Source: a virus
IMG/VR virus record: IMGVR_UViG_3300031521_001337
Location: 62,001 to 126,000 of that record
Reading direction: 5' to 3' (one strand)
Length of the DNA stretch: 64,000 nucleotides
The notes below the pieces were generated by a model. The model searched no databases. It was not told where the DNA came from and saw only the letters and a program-made list of their open reading frames with translations. This document shows, in pieces, positions 8,073 to 23,006 of this stretch. Every line of letters starts with the position of its first letter. The stretch's first letter is position 1. Position numbers and translations under genes: made by a program.

Positions 8073-8437
8073 TAATCGAAAATTTTAAAATACATCATCT
8101 TACTAGGGATCAATTTAAATTTGTTCAAGAAATAATATTTAAAAATAATTGTTCATGGGTAGGATCACACACAACTAACATTAAAGAACATTCAGATAGT
8201 AATGATATTTCTATTGTAGTAAATAATCTTGAGGCGAGATCTGGATCAGATATTGTACAAGGTATATTTGATCAACTTAGAGGAGAAGAAATTACTTTTG
8301 AACAATTTAAAGAATTATATTTTATTAATATTCCTAAATTTACTAAACAACAAATGTTTGATTTTGCGGAATTTTATGCAAATAATTCAGACACAATATT
8401 AAATGATGAATTGCTAAAACAATTTTTAAATCCATAA
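8069..8437 (+). CDS. Tandem paralogue A5
   Basis: 122 residues, most similar to A4 (ENFKIHHL, VQEIIFKNN-SW, EITFEQF, FAEFYANN). It shares one base with the start of the NMN adenylyltransferase gene, so the paralogue array and the NAD genes appear to be one transcription unit. Confidence 0.75.
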   Translation: MIIENFKIHHLTRDQFKFVQEIIFKNNCSWVGSHTTNIKEHSDSNDISIVVNNLEARSGSDIVQGIFDQLRGEEITFEQFKELYFINIPKFTKQQMFDFAEFYANNSDTILNDELLKQFLNP

Positions 8438-9336
8438 TGAACGAAACTCAAACAGAAATTGGAGTTGTTATCGGGAGATTTCAGCTACACGAATTGCATA
8501 CTGAACATATCAAGTTAATTGAACATGTTCTTGCAAACCACGAAAAGGTAATTTTATTCTTAGGAACTACATCTGCAATGGGTACTCAAAGAAATCCATT
8601 GGATTTTATTACCCGTAAAGCTATGATCGAAGCACATTTTAGAAATAGAATATCTTCAATTGTACCACTTGCTGATTGTAAATCCAATGAAGTATGGTCT
8701 ACTCAAATTCGTACTAAAGTAAGAGATATTTTTCCATCTGGAACAGTTACTCTTTATGGAGGTAAAGATTCGTTTATTCCATATTATACTGGAAATTGGA
8801 AAACAACTGAACTTGAACCAGAAGTCTATATATCTGCAACAGATATTAGAAAGAAAGTTGCCGGACGTATATTAGCATCATCTGATTTCAGAGCTGGTAT
8901 AATTTATTCGGTTTTTTCACAATATCCCCGCTCATTTTCAACAGTTGATGTTGCAATCTTTAATGAAAAAGGTGAAATTCTATTAGGTCAAAAACCTGAT
9001 GAAAAAGAATGGTGTTTTGTTGGAGGATTTGTTGATGTTACTGATGAATCCGATGAAGCTGCTGCTCGTCGTGAAGGTAGAGAAGAAACAGGTCTTGAAC
9101 TTGCTGACTTTGAATTCGTTTGTTCAAAACGTGTAGAAGATTGGCGATATAAGAATTCACATGATGCTAAAATTATGACGCATTTATACAAATGTAAATA
9201 TACTTTTGGTAGTCCACAACCTCAAGATGATATTGCTGCCTTAAAATGGTTCCCATACGGTCCTGAGCTAGACAAAATCTTGGTTGGAGAACATAAAAAG
9301 TTATTAGTTGACTTATTAAAAAATACTGAAAAATGA
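8437..9336 (+). CDS. nadM: Bifunctional NMN adenylyltransferase / Nudix hydrolase
   Basis: 299 residues in two domains. Residues 1-150 are a nucleotidyltransferase with GRFQ and the HxxH-type ATP site (LHELH) near the start and an ISATDIR motif near 135. This forms NAD+ from NMN and ATP. Residues 165-299 are a Nudix domain with a REGREETGL box (about 213) and one extra residue before the Glu. Known homologues join these activities, with the Nudix part acting on ADP-ribose. Together with the NAMPT gene at 10247 it makes a two-step nicotinamide-to-NAD+ route. It overlaps its neighbours by 1 and 4 bases. Confidence 0.93.
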   Translation: MNETQTEIGVVIGRFQLHELHTEHIKLIEHVLANHEKVILFLGTTSAMGTQRNPLDFITRKAMIEAHFRNRISSIVPLADCKSNEVWSTQIRTKVRDIFPSGTVTLYGGKDSFIPYYTGNWKTTELEPEVYISATDIRKKVAGRILASSDFRAGIIYSVFSQYPRSFSTVDVAIFNEKGEILLGQKPDEKEWCFVGGFVDVTDESDEAAARREGREETGLELADFEFVCSKRVEDWRYKNSHDAKIMTHLYKCKYTFGSPQPQDDIAALKWFPYGPELDKILVGEHKKLLVDLLKNTEK

Positions 9337-10246: not shown

Positions 10247-11677
10247 ATGCCAAAATTTCATCCAACAACCGCAACTGATGCATATAAATTTGTGCATTGG
10301 ACGCAACGTCCTTCGGGATTGACAAGACTTATGTCTTATGGAGAACCTCGTGTAGGAGGTCAACACTCTCATATTGTTTTCTATGGTATACAATATTTCA
10401 TAAAAGAATATTTTATGACTGTTGTCACTAATGAAGATATTGAACGTGGTGCTCGTAGAAGTTTAAATACTTTTGGTAACCCTGGTTATTTCCCTCAAGA
10501 AATTTGGGAAAAAGTTCGCGATTTAGGATATTATCCTTTAGAAATCAAAGCTGTAAAAGAAGGAACTGTTGTTCCAACTGGTAATGTTTGTTATACAATT
10601 GAAGCTACTGAAGAGTGGTTTGCACCAATGGTTAGTCACTTCGAACCTTGGTTAATGTGGAATTGGTATCCAGTTGCCGTTGCTACTCGTATGTATAATA
10701 TTCATAAAGGTATTACTCCATCATTCAAAATCTCTACTAACAACGCTATGTTGGATTATGTAGTTAATGATTTTGGATTAAGAGGTGCTCAAGGTCATGA
10801 AGCTGCTTGTTTAGGTGGTTCTGCTGCTTTAATCTTTTCTGATGGTTCTGATAATGTTCCAGCAATGGAATTTATTGAAGACTATTACGGAGATGCAACC
10901 GTAGGAAAATCTGTATGGGCAACTGAACACTCAGTAGCAACTGTATTTGGTCCTGGTCAGGGAGAATTTGATTATGTCAATGCTCAATTTGATCGCGCTG
11001 GTGACGATGCTATGGTATCAATTGTTATTGATTCTTATGATGATACTAATTTCATTAAAAATGTTATTGGTTCAGAAGCAATCAAACAACGTATTATCGC
11101 ACGTCCAGGTAGAACTATTTTACGTCCGGATTCTGGTGTTCCGTTAACAAATATGATTAAGTATTCTGAAATGCTTGGTAATATTTTTGGATATCACTTA
11201 AATGAAGTAGATTACAGAGTAATTAATCATAATGTAGGCTTAATTCAAGGAGATGGTATGAATGAAAATTCAATCGTTGATATTTATTCAGAATACATTA
11301 AAACTGGTTGGTCTTGTGAAAACTTTGCGGTTGGTTCAGGTGGTGGTTTGCTTGTTGAAGGATTGACCAGAGATACAGATCGTTGGGCAGTAAAATGCTG
11401 TTTCGCTGTAATTGATGGAGAATCAAAAGATATTCGTAAATCTCCTAAAGGAGATATGACTAAAGCTTCAAAAGCTGGTATTTTGAAACTTCATAAAGCC
11501 GGATCAGAATTCATTACTATCGAAAGTTCTAAAGAACAATATGGTATTAATAATGGATATGCTGATGAACTTGAAATAGTTTATCGTAATGGTAAATTAA
11601 TGAGAGATCAACATTGGACAGAAATTCGCACTATTGCTAAGAGTTATCTTGAAGCCGATTTAAAAACAAGTAAATAA
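10247..11677 (+). CDS. nadV: Nicotinamide phosphoribosyltransferase (NAMPT/NadV)
   Basis: 476 residues, the usual length of the family. Recognisable blocks are the RPDSG motif (about 288), GLIQGDGMN (about 332) and a GSGGGLL phosphate-binding loop (about 366). It joins nicotinamide and PRPP to give NMN, which nadM then converts to NAD+. This pair is the arrangement called NARP2 in work on phages that rebuild NAD+ after host defences deplete it. It starts at the ATG immediately after the previous stop and is followed by a terminator. Confidence 0.93.
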   Translation: MPKFHPTTATDAYKFVHWTQRPSGLTRLMSYGEPRVGGQHSHIVFYGIQYFIKEYFMTVVTNEDIERGARRSLNTFGNPGYFPQEIWEKVRDLGYYPLEIKAVKEGTVVPTGNVCYTIEATEEWFAPMVSHFEPWLMWNWYPVAVATRMYNIHKGITPSFKISTNNAMLDYVVNDFGLRGAQGHEAACLGGSAALIFSDGSDNVPAMEFIEDYYGDATVGKSVWATEHSVATVFGPGQGEFDYVNAQFDRAGDDAMVSIVIDSYDDTNFIKNVIGSEAIKQRIIARPGRTILRPDSGVPLTNMIKYSEMLGNIFGYHLNEVDYRVINHNVGLIQGDGMNENSIVDIYSEYIKTGWSCENFAVGSGGGLLVEGLTRDTDRWAVKCCFAVIDGESKDIRKSPKGDMTKASKAGILKLHKAGSEFITIESSKEQYGINNGYADELEIVYRNGKLMRDQHWTEIRTIAKSYLEADLKTSK

Positions 11678-14981: not shown

Positions 14982-15054
14982 CGCGAAGTGGTAGCAGTGG
15001 TAGCTCGCAAGGCTCATAACCTTGAGGTCGGGGGTTCAATTCCCTCCTTCGCAA
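14982..15054 (+). tRNA. Initiator tRNA-fMet(CAU)
   Basis: Acceptor CGCGAAG/CTTCGCA has a C1-A72 mismatch, the hallmark that allows formylation and blocks elongation use. The D arm reads AGCAGTGGTAGCTC as in initiators, and the anticodon loop is CTCATAA. The anticodon stem CAAGG/CCTTG keeps only two of the usual three G-C pairs. Discriminator A. A formyltransferase gene lies 7 kb downstream. Confidence 0.92.
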
Positions 15055-15060
15055 CTAAAT

Positions 15061-15473: not shown

Positions 15474-15475
15474 GT

Positions 15476-15620
15476 CCAGAGGGCTCTAATTGTATATGAG
15501 GGAAGTGACTCTGGAATTCCTCCGTATTTAAAGTATTGGTGAATGTTATATCTAGAATGGTAATTTATTATCGTCGATGATGTTTCTATAATATACAATC
15601 GCAATTAGTATATCTTTTTT
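15476..15620 (+). ncRNA. Structured RNA B
   Basis: CTAATTG at 15486 pairs with CAATTAG at 15602, continued by TATAT/ATATA with a bulge. An alternative CCAGAG/CTCTGG pairing exists at the 5' side. No coding frame and no tRNA arms are seen. Confidence 0.45.
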
Positions 15621-15627
15621 AAAATAT

Positions 15628-15795
15628 AAAATATTGAAATGTTGGCTTGGAAGCAGCAATCATCTAAAGAGTGGGACGAGACTACGTTGATAAACCAATT
15701 CAAGTTGGAATTTAATGTGGTAAGGTAAGTTGGAGGTCACCCCGTAACTGGTAAGGACTGAAATCCCTTTGGCGTAATAGCACATCAATATTTTT
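15628..15795 (+). ncRNA. Structured RNA C: mimic of the 23S rRNA GTPase-associated centre
   Basis: A 168-nt RNA closed by a perfect 10-bp helix (AAAATATTGA at 15628, TCAATATTTT at 15785). Just inside, bases 15639-15670 read ATGTTGGCTTGGAAGCAGC then ATCATCTAAAGAGTG. This matches helix 43 of bacterial 23S rRNA (E. coli numbering about 1057-1086), and GCGTAATAGC at 15772 matches helix 44. About 100 bases are inserted between the two halves, at the natural H43/H44 junction. In rRNA this element binds L11 and contacts EF-G, EF-Tu and RelA. The rRNA comparison is from memory. Function of the phage RNA is inferred only. Confidence 0.75.
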
Positions 15796-15802
15796 AAAAA
15801 TT

Positions 15803-15960
15803 AAATGAGTAACATCCGAGAATGGTCGGTGAGTCAGGTAAGAGGGGAACCCAATGCTGACTTAGAATGAGGAATTAAGTCCAGATATCCCTAACGAAAA
15901 GATGTAGGTGTAGTCCCGTGGATAACATGCGTGTAATTGTCCCTCCCGTTACTCATTTTT
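15803..15960 (+). ncRNA. Structured RNA D (158 nt)
   Basis: The ends form an 11-bp perfect helix (AAATGAGTAAC/GTTACTCATTT) and a T run follows. The interior has GAGTCAG...CTGACTTA and GGGGAACCC pairing possibilities. It lies five bases before tRNA-Arg. A short stretch resembles 23S rRNA near E. coli 1690, too weakly to rely on. Confidence 0.6.
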
Positions 15961-15965
15961 AAAAT

Positions 15966-16038
15966 GCTCCAGTAGCTCAGTGGATAGAGCATCGGTTTTC
16001 TAAACCGAGGGTCGCTGGTTCAAGTCCAGCTTGGAGTA
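15966..16038 (+). tRNA. tRNA-Arg(UCU)
   Basis: Acceptor GCTCCAG/TTGGAGT with wobble ends. The anticodon arm TCGGT-TTTCTAA-ACCGA gives UCU, which reads AGA, the expected common Arg codon in this AT-rich genome. T arm GCTGG-TTCAAGT-CCAGC. Confidence 0.93.
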
Positions 16039-16044
16039 CAACTA

Positions 16045-16214
16045 GGTTTATTTATTATTAGCTACGATAGAATAAACCATCAAAGATGGGGTTGTAGTCT
16101 TAACTTATAAAGTTATTGCCCATACCAATTAACAAAACTAACTAGGGTCGAGCTACATTTTGCCACTGTTAGTATTAGACTTAGAGATCAGAGGTAGCCG
16201 TGACTACTCTAAGT
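16045..16214 (+). ncRNA. Hairpin-rich spacer E
   Basis: It contains an 8-bp hairpin GGTTTATT/AATAAACC (16045-16078) and, at its end, ACTTAGAG/CTCTAAGT (16179-16214) enclosing a GTAG/CTAC inner stem. The middle shows no clear fold and there is no gene. Possible processed RNA or processing signals. Confidence 0.4.
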
Positions 16215-16224
16215 TGAACAAATA

Positions 16225-16442
16225 AAATCTCTTTAATTGAAGCAAAACGGTAACCAGGGGGAGACACCCAACCCAATAAGGGGTAAGGACGAAAGTTGAG
16301 TACGTAGGTTATAAACCATAGCAGTGGTTGAATGTTTTGGTAAATGTAGTTATGATATGGTTAGTGTTCGCAGAAAAGCCTTCGTTATGACCTAAGTCAA
16401 TATAATTATTCCACTCTGCTTAAAGTGAATAAAGAGATTTTT
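16225..16442 (+). ncRNA. Structured RNA F (218 nt)
   Basis: A perfect 11-bp terminal helix (AAATCTCTTTA at 16225, TAAAGAGATTT at 16430) encloses about 195 bases without a gene. The segment GGTAAGGACGAAAG resembles GGTAAGGACTGAAA in the insert of RNA C, so the two RNAs may share a motif. Confidence 0.6.
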
Positions 16443-16445
16443 TAT

Positions 16446-16522
16446 GCCTACTTATACCCTCAAGCTTATATCTTGTTGAAAGGTTATTTGGTGACAGCCT
16501 GGTTCAATCCCAGGAGTAGGTA
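16446..16522 (+). tRNA. Atypical tRNA, possibly D-armless tRNA-Ile(UAU)
   Basis: Acceptor GCCTACT/AGTAGGT and T arm CCTGG-TTCAATC-CCAGG are normal. The best anticodon arm is CAAG-CTTATAT-CTTG (4 bp, U33, anticodon UAU). That leaves only eight bases for a D arm and a long variable region with a GTTA/TGAC hairpin. An alternative loop GTTGAAA (anticodon UGA) has a poor stem. An HNH gene starts five bases after it. AUA is a frequent codon here. Confidence 0.5.
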
Positions 16523-16526
16523 CAAT

Positions 16527-20950: not shown

Positions 20951-20956
20951 CTAAAT

Positions 20957-21035
20957 TCCCCAATGGCGTAATTGGCAGACGCGTATTCTTCGGAATATGT
21001 CGAGAGACATGTGGGTTCGAGTCCTCCTTGGGGGA
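20957..21035 (+). tRNA. Leu-type tRNA-like RNA with UUCG loop in place of an anticodon
   Basis: Acceptor TCCCCAA/TTGGGGG, Leu-like D arm (TGGCGTAATTGGCAGACGC), variable arm (GTCGAGAGACATG) and discriminator A are present. The anticodon arm is GTATTC-TTCG-GAATAT, a stem capped by the very stable C(UUCG)G tetraloop. No anticodon is exposed. LeuRS of most bacteria does not read the anticodon, so charging with Leu remains conceivable. The T stem has one mismatch. Confidence 0.6.
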
Positions 21036-21041
21036 GCAAAT

Positions 21042-22061: not shown

Positions 22062-23006
22062 ATGAAGATATTATTTATTGGTAATGGAATTTTTGGAGTT
22101 CCAGCATTAAAAAAATTACATGAAATTTATCAAGTTACAGTTATAACAACACCACCACGACGTTTCGGTAGAGTAGTACAAAATACACCTATTTATATTG
22201 CTGGTAAAGCTTTAGGTTGTTTAGTATATACTGCTAATGATATTAATGAACTTGAACATCGTATAATTAGTACTGATTTTGATTTAATTGTTGTTGCATC
22301 TTATGGACAAATAATTAAAATGAAAATACTTGATTCTGCTAAATATGGTGCAATTAATATTCATGGTTCATTATTACCGAAGTATAGAGGTGCTTCTTGT
22401 ATTCAAGCTGCTATTTTGAATAGAGATTCTGAAACAGGAGTTACATTTATTAAAATGAATGCTGCTGTAGATGCTGGAAGTATTATTACTCAACGTAAAA
22501 TGTATCTACCTGTAGGAATGGGATATATTATGCTTCTTGATCAATTATCAAACTTAGCTGCTGAAAATATTCTTCTAACAATCACTAAATATACTCGTGG
22601 AGTTATTTTAAGACCACAGATAGAAAGTGAAGCTACATATTGTTGTAAAATAACTAAAGATGATTGTTTACTTGATTTTAATAAAAATGTTGATGATGTA
22701 TATGCAAAAATGAAGGCATATGAATCGAATCACGGAGTATTCTTTTATTTACCAGATAACAATACTGAAGTTAAAATTAAAGATGCATGTATGTATACTG
22801 GACGTGTTAAAGGTGATTTCTTAGATGGAGAATTAATTTGTGTTGAAAATAATAAACTTTTTATAAATTGTAATAAAAGTAGTCTTCAGATTGTTTCATT
22901 ACAATTACCTAATAAAAAGGTTATGTCAGCTAGAGATTTTATTAATGGTCATAAGAAGTTAATCACACAATTTGCTGATTTACAAATAATTGTACATAAT
23001 GTATGA
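22062..23006 (+). CDS. fmt: Methionyl-tRNA formyltransferase
   Basis: 314 residues, the normal length for Fmt. The catalytic core shows NIHGSLLPKYRGA (about 107-119, with the Asn and His of the active site) and VDAGSII (about 144) supplying the Asp. A C-terminal OB-like domain starts near 205. The enzyme formylates Met on initiator tRNA using 10-formyl-THF. The phage also carries the initiator tRNA at 14982, so both parts of formyl-Met initiation are present. No peptide deformylase was found in this window. Other formyltransferases (PurN, ArnA-like) are less likely given the HGSLLPxYRGA form and length. Confidence 0.9.
   Translation: MKILFIGNGIFGVPALKKLHEIYQVTVITTPPRRFGRVVQNTPIYIAGKALGCLVYTANDINELEHRIISTDFDLIVVASYGQIIKMKILDSAKYGAINIHGSLLPKYRGASCIQAAILNRDSETGVTFIKMNAAVDAGSIITQRKMYLPVGMGYIMLLDQLSNLAAENILLTITKYTRGVILRPQIESEATYCCKITKDDCLLDFNKNVDDVYAKMKAYESNHGVFFYLPDNNTEVKIKDACMYTGRVKGDFLDGELICVENNKLFINCNKSSLQIVSLQLPNKKVMSARDFINGHKKLITQFADLQIIVHNV

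Follow-up and report, generated by a model that had tools for sequence, protein, structure and literature searches.

The GTPase-associated center (GAC) of 23S rRNA is the binding site of protein L11 and an independently folding unit of 58 nucleotides near which thiostrepton acts (PMC4409310), and RelA is not activated by ribosomes lacking L11 or the L11 N-terminus (PMC4974054). A GAC-like sequence in a 213-kb virus record raises the question of whether the virus makes a GAC copy of its own and, if so, what that copy would do. An earlier note, made from the sequence alone, had proposed a phage RNA carrying such a copy. Here, we analyze the 64,000-nucleotide stretch of this record that contains the element (hereafter the window), and present comparative sequence evidence that the element is one case of a large and apparently undescribed family of phage RNAs, which we term the GAC mimic and which probably captures L11 or another host factor recognizing the GAC on behalf of the virus.

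The element is a phage RNA of about 167 nt (positions 15628–15794 of the window) in which H42 closes a copy of the 23S helices H43 and H44 (Table 1; in E. coli 23S numbering, 15641 is G1059). GAC-like segments lie at 15628–15795 with the sequence and order that the earlier note had described. The 35 nt at 15639–15673, where it saw a near-perfect H43 match of about 32 bases, are ~91% identical to genuine 23S GACs, its H44 match GCGTAATAGC is present at 15772–15781, and the closing helix is indeed a perfect 10 bp. The note also described about 100 bases inserted at the H43/H44 junction; the insert exists and measures 93 nt, but its site is the 5’ strand of H44, after G1091. The insert is followed by C-UUUG and then by the H44 hairpin. 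The equivalent of position 1067 (15649) is G, as it is in some Bacteroidota 23S rRNAs. Tracking hosts by this position was rejected because mimics with G1067 are also found in contigs assigned to other phyla, for example L200 and L192.

Table 1. Parts of the GAC mimic in the window and its nearest tRNA genes.
Feature	Position	Strand	Basis or remark
Nearest upstream tRNA, Met (CAT)	14982–15055	+	tRNA scan
H42 5’ strand, 10 bp	15628–15637	+	Perfect pairing with 15785–15794; ends at 1055 equivalent
H43 hairpin (E. coli 1057–1081)	15639–15663	+	Identity to 23S rRNAs; numbering
Hairpin-turn segment 1082–1086, CUAAA	15664–15668	+	23S numbering
H44 5’ strand GAGUG (1087–1091)	15669–15673	+	G15673 starts insert helix
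Inserted domain, 93 nt	15674–15766	+	Base helix 15673–15676 with 15764–15767
Hairpin conserved in insert subfamily A, GUCACCCCGUAACUGGUAAGGAC	15736–15758	+	Subfamily A alignment and consensus fold
UUUG linker, conserved, between insert helix and H44 hairpin	15768–15771	+	Core comparison
H44 terminal hairpin GCGUAAUAGC (1091–1100)	15772–15781	+	Core comparison, numbering
ACA (1101–1103)	15782–15784	+	A1101 in place of rRNA U1101; can pair with U1090
H42 3’ strand	15785–15794	+	Perfect pairing with 15628–15637
Nearest downstream tRNA, Arg (TCT)	15966–16039	+	tRNA scan

The 3’ 20-mer of the element is scarce in cellular DNA: across 257 Gb of bacterial and archaeal genomes it has only 31 occurrences (25 without the H43 half and six with it), a rarity at which ~6e-6 chance occurrences would be expected in 64 kb. 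Neither an Rfam gathering-threshold scan of the window nor a permissive scan around the element returned a family for it, and a single-sequence fold of the window element gave no signal (z = −0.65); the argument is therefore a comparative one. Specifically, the bacterial LSU rRNA model RF02541 has no match in the window, three relatives reached 21.8–25.3 bits against the bacterial and archaeal LSU rRNA models (threshold 50), and the ROOL, GOLLD and OLE models matched nothing in the window scans or in these three relatives. We built a covariance model from 12 very diverse cores, leaving out the window and its insert subfamily. Applied to the window, this model recovered the two halves of the element with E-values of 5.7e-7 and 2.3e-4 and gave no other hit of weight; the length of the insert splits the match in two. 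The model found each of 14 tested carrier records, including L005, which had contributed to it, and it also picks up real 23S rRNA at 36–50 bits, as expected from homology.

The family is large. Well over 100 relatives are present in IMG/VR, and the mimic is carried by about 12 cultured phage lineages; the carriers include many unrelated bacterial viruses. The 3’ motif CTTTGGCGTARNAGCNCAYC occurs in 104 IMG/VR stretches, 95 of which have the H43 half upstream; of the remaining nine, four have a contig end no more than 180 nt away. A 5’ motif designed against ordinary 23S rRNA occurs in at least 119 stretches. As the 3’ motif is nearly absent from cellular genomes, the family is essentially viral. 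Among cultured phages, distant BLAST found both halves in Pseudomonas phages UNO-G1W1, pf16, Milchi and Astolliot and in Aeromonas phage 4_4572; several jumbo phages matched with the H43 half. Further carriers are Serratia BF, seven Erwinia phages, Pectobacterium CBB, Cronobacter GAP32, and Xanthomonas XbC2, XaC1 and XacN1. In complete cultured genomes of one lineage, the mimic occupies the same position.

A second copy is present in some phages. The second mimics of L044, L069 and Milchi (L004) stand in tandem with the first, that of Milchi (~2655–2970) being strongly decayed or diverged. A 409-kb phage record (G189, the record of L017) has three covariance-model hits within ~1.2 kb, which suggests that it, too, carries more than one mimic. 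Paenibacillus phage Pd_22F (L210, MZ092003.1) was rejected as a carrier: the matching part of its record is genuine 23S rRNA and probably host DNA.

We examined the fold in 162 loci with both halves, which gave 122 distinct standard cores and, below 85% identity, 116. Members were found and sorted by patterns, so that the constancy of GCAGC, UAA.GAGUG and CUUUGGCGUA is partly by construction, and GAGUG and UUUG were partly selection criteria for cores. Our covariation claims therefore rest on H42 and on positions 1058, 1080, 1082, 1086 and 1101, which are free of the search patterns. Across the 116 cores, the H42 pairs from 1050–1109 to 1055–1104 are paired in fractions of 0.86–0.99 with all pair types represented and changing, whereas shuffling gives ~0.4 for those of the pairs that vary. 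For 1058–1080 the fraction is 0.99 (0.44 in shuffles), and for 1082–1086, a pair of the GAC hairpin turn, it is 0.91 with three types (0.52 in shuffles). The 12 diverse cores behind the covariance model, again without the window’s insert subfamily, gave a covariation score of 0.632, as against 0.179 when shuffled and at most 0.176 when slid.

Tertiary features are kept as well. U1060 and A1088, which are tertiary partners in the known GAC structure, are invariant in the 116 cores (for A1088 partly by construction), and 1056·1103 is purine·A in 113 of them. The pair at 1082–1086 is C·A in the window and covaries among U-A, C-G and A-U across the family. By comparison of sequences, then, the mimic has the GAC fold, with H42, H43 and H44 in order, covarying pairs and the tertiary contacts (U1060 with A1088, 1082–1086 and 1056·1103) retained in the family. 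H44 is interrupted in all standard members by the insertion after G1091. This G is paired with the C preceding UUUG in 0.99 of cores, and the next insert pairs form in 0.95, 0.88 and 0.65. For the window’s insert subfamily, RNAalifold instead pairs the last U and the G of the linker with A1103 and C1102, replacing G1087–C1102, an arrangement that may hold, as these columns hardly vary.

How the mimic departs from 23S rRNA bears on its origin. A1101 is found in 118 of 122 cores and U in 34 of 34 sampled 23S rRNAs, at a position that was N in the search patterns; the last linker position is G in 107 cores and A in 15. The common graft point, the UUUG linker and A1101 point to a single origin. 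Pair types absent from the sampled 23S rRNAs, namely A-U at 1058–1080 and C-G and A-U at 1082–1086, argue that the fold is maintained by selection on the mimic RNA itself. Relative to this small reference (34 pattern-picked sequences from three phyla, which understates 23S variation), positions 1061, 1067–1070 and 1095–1097 are looser and the tertiary core hardly varies. The tips contacted by factors and thiopeptides (1067–1070 and 1095–1096) are somewhat relaxed, and the factor-contacting tips are still 73–93% conserved.

The inserts are the variable part of the RNA. Their lengths run from 22 to ~363 nt (a listed 555-nt insert was rejected as a mispairing in L003), and by BLAST they form 80 unrelated groups among 116, the largest of which has 23 members and includes the window’s insert. 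Within this subfamily the consensus fold has 15 of 32 pairs compensated.

Phages are known to carry tRNAs and occasionally ribosomal proteins, and the mimic lies among the tRNA genes. Its neighbors in the window are tRNA-Met and tRNA-Arg, one on either side, within a cluster that exceeds 20 tRNAs; a tmRNA is located further upstream. A tRNA occurs within 3 kb at 114 of 168 loci, and the tRNAs are on the same strand as the mimic in a ratio of 756:0 (strand detection was checked with reversed input). Within 500 nt of the mimic there are 1.65 tRNAs per kb, compared with 0.34 per kb at 6–8 kb, and the spacing to a tRNA is often 2–20 nt. The 54 loci with no tRNA within 3 kb include many short pieces. 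Protein-coding neighbors show no such association: no protein family recurs beside the mimic (the largest cluster covers 12 of 168 loci), there is no conserved downstream gene, and the mimic does not lie directly upstream of a ribosomal-protein gene as a leader RNA would. Searches of 24 carrier records, run alongside positive controls, detected no L11 or RelA/SpoT domain gene, so the partner should be the host’s.

Other features of the window’s tRNA region were recorded. The stretch that directly follows the mimic, 15798–15962, stops 3 nt short of tRNA-Arg and is another candidate structured RNA (z = −1.73). An 11-bp stem without mismatches closes it (AAATGAGTAAC/GTTACTCATTT), and its relatives were found only in identical records. 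The ~400 nt at 16040–16445 contain no evident gene, segments able to pair (AATCTCTTTA/TAAAGAGATT) and a GGTAAGGACGAAA stretch resembling the insert motif of the mimic. Neither these two candidates nor a third at 15474–15605 has relatives in the analyzed set, and cultured-phage matches to 15798–16525 are limited to the tRNA. A tRNA-like segment at 16445–16522 (GCCTACTTATACC...GGTTCAATCCCAGGAGTAGGTA) received no ARAGORN or Rfam call, and the tRNA at 20956–21037 has an unassigned, two-base anticodon call from ARAGORN. Inside the tRNA cluster, 22062–23006 is a gene that by eye resembles methionyl-tRNA formyltransferase. Elsewhere in the window, a probable NMN adenylyltransferase/nudix gene (8437–9336) and a probable nicotinamide phosphoribosyltransferase (NAMPT) gene (10247–11677) form a NAD salvage pair; relatives of the NAMPT indicated no host.

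Position and covariation suggest that the mimic is a stand-alone RNA product. A free GAC copy under selection for its fold should bind L11, and we consider such binding likely. Conservation favors L11, as the tertiary core is kept and the tips are somewhat relaxed, while the remaining conservation of the tips makes partners other than L11 possible. We envisage that an RNA gene co-directional with the phage tRNA genes would make a free RNA with the fold of an authentic GAC, including H42, H43, H44 and the tertiary core, and with a domain specific to the phage inserted in H44. This RNA would hold host L11, through its C-terminal domain, off the ribosome; ribosomes of the infected cell would then lack or lose L11 function, and the arrival of deacylated tRNA in their A site would not activate RelA. 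The phage tRNA genes would address tRNA shortage, and the decoy would silence the alarm arising from that shortage. The variable insert may tune stability, localization or a second partner.

We put this forward tentatively. That the free RNA acts as a decoy, binding L11 off the ribosome and lowering L11 function and RelA activation, seems to us close to an even call, if slightly short of one, and we would say much the same of an action on RelA or on other L11-dependent functions taken separately. L11 already on ribosomes may exchange slowly, and a decoy might then need to be very abundant; L11 binding alone also does not account for the large, diverse inserts. Among 67 phages on P. putida without (p)ppGpp, about half did better and the rest worse (PMC12814882), so the benefit of lost (p)ppGpp to a phage varies. 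As to history, we somewhat favor a long-ago phage capture of a piece of 23S rRNA that became a free RNA gene and spread with tRNA arrays, its constant GAC half capturing L11 or a GAC-reading factor and its rapidly replaced insert adapting the decoy to each host. The interpretation in the earlier note is partly supported: a phage RNA with a folded GAC copy has strong support from a family found in well over 100 phage contigs, and titrating L11, blunting the stringent response or baiting a ribosome-targeting defense are reasonable as putative actions.

Baiting would mean that a host defense enzyme or toxin that recognizes, cuts or modifies the GAC hits the phage RNA and the ribosome is spared. 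The site among phage tRNA genes and the two copies in some phages fit this account, and partly variable tips with very variable inserts would suit an arms race. However, the strongest constraint falls on the buried tertiary core and not on an exposed target loop, and we know of no defense nuclease aimed at H43/H44; we regard baiting as unlikely. Rather unlikely, too, is a docking scaffold, in which the GAC half would bring in L11 or translational GTPases, or seat the RNA on ribosome-related machinery, and the insert would act there. The constant GAC frame, the precisely fixed graft point and the 80 unrelated insert groups among 116 speak for it, as does the reported binding of GOLLD RNA to ribosomes in pull-downs (PMC12286853), but intact ribosomes already have the L11 site occupied by rRNA, and no insert motif is common to the whole family, hence no shared cargo function is indicated.

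Strict co-orientation with tRNAs, often only 2–20 nt away, would also be expected of a cis-acting or processing element of the tRNA transcript, serving for example stability or maturation with L11 borrowed as a chaperone. We find this improbable given the 54 of 168 loci at which no tRNA lies closer than 3 kb (short pieces in many cases), the lack of a conserved downstream gene, and an exact GAC core that a spacer would not need. Host 23S rRNA does occur in some phage records, as in Pd_22F, but a contaminating or recombined host piece, or chance, is refuted for the mimic by the graft point, UUUG linker and U1101A common to unrelated phages and absent from sampled 23S rRNA, by covariation of its own, and by complete cultured genomes carrying it at one place within a lineage.

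The claim in the earlier note that no phage GAC mimic was known agrees with Rfam 15, which has no family for it, and with our searches of open-access papers, which turned up neither an earlier report of the mimic nor a description of free RNAs that form a conserved family based on an rRNA domain. In a 2010 survey, extra rRNAs were sought and annotated by BLAST (PMC2864571), and we infer that the mimic may have been missed as RNA-discovery pipelines can set aside rRNA-like sequence. If capture of L11 or of a GAC-reading factor by the mimic holds true, it would give viruses a direct handle on the ribosome’s GTPase and stringent-response switch. It would also be, to our knowledge, the first viral decoy of an rRNA domain. 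The mimic is widespread, its carriers include cultured phages with tractable hosts, and it makes a clear prediction: L11 binding and loss of RelA activation.

Among known RNAs, the mimic is closest to the 23S GAC (H42–H44), which it equals in helices, order, tertiary-core residues and covarying pairs. In contrast to the 23S GAC, it would be a free RNA with an arbitrary closing helix of at least 10 bp, a domain of 22 to ~363 nt after G1091, the UUUG linker, U1101A, and extra pair types at 1058–1080 and 1082–1086. ROOL and GOLLD are likewise phage or prophage RNAs, often near tRNA islands and of unknown function (PMC12286853), but they are ~660 and >800 nt long and form cages, and their Rfam models have no match here. 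OLE RNA offers a precedent as a non-ribosomal RNA with a protein pocket resembling an rRNA site and a proposed sequestration of RpsU (PMC12286853), although it is a different RNA without a GAC and involves a different ribosomal protein. Ribosomal-protein leader RNAs imitate rRNA and bind a ribosomal protein for autoregulation, as the mimic is predicted to bind one, but they precede ribosomal-protein genes, whereas no L11 gene was found in the 24 carrier records and no conserved gene lies downstream of the mimic. In its setting, the mimic resembles the RNA genes of phage tRNA arrays, lying as they do within or beside tRNA genes and on the same strand.
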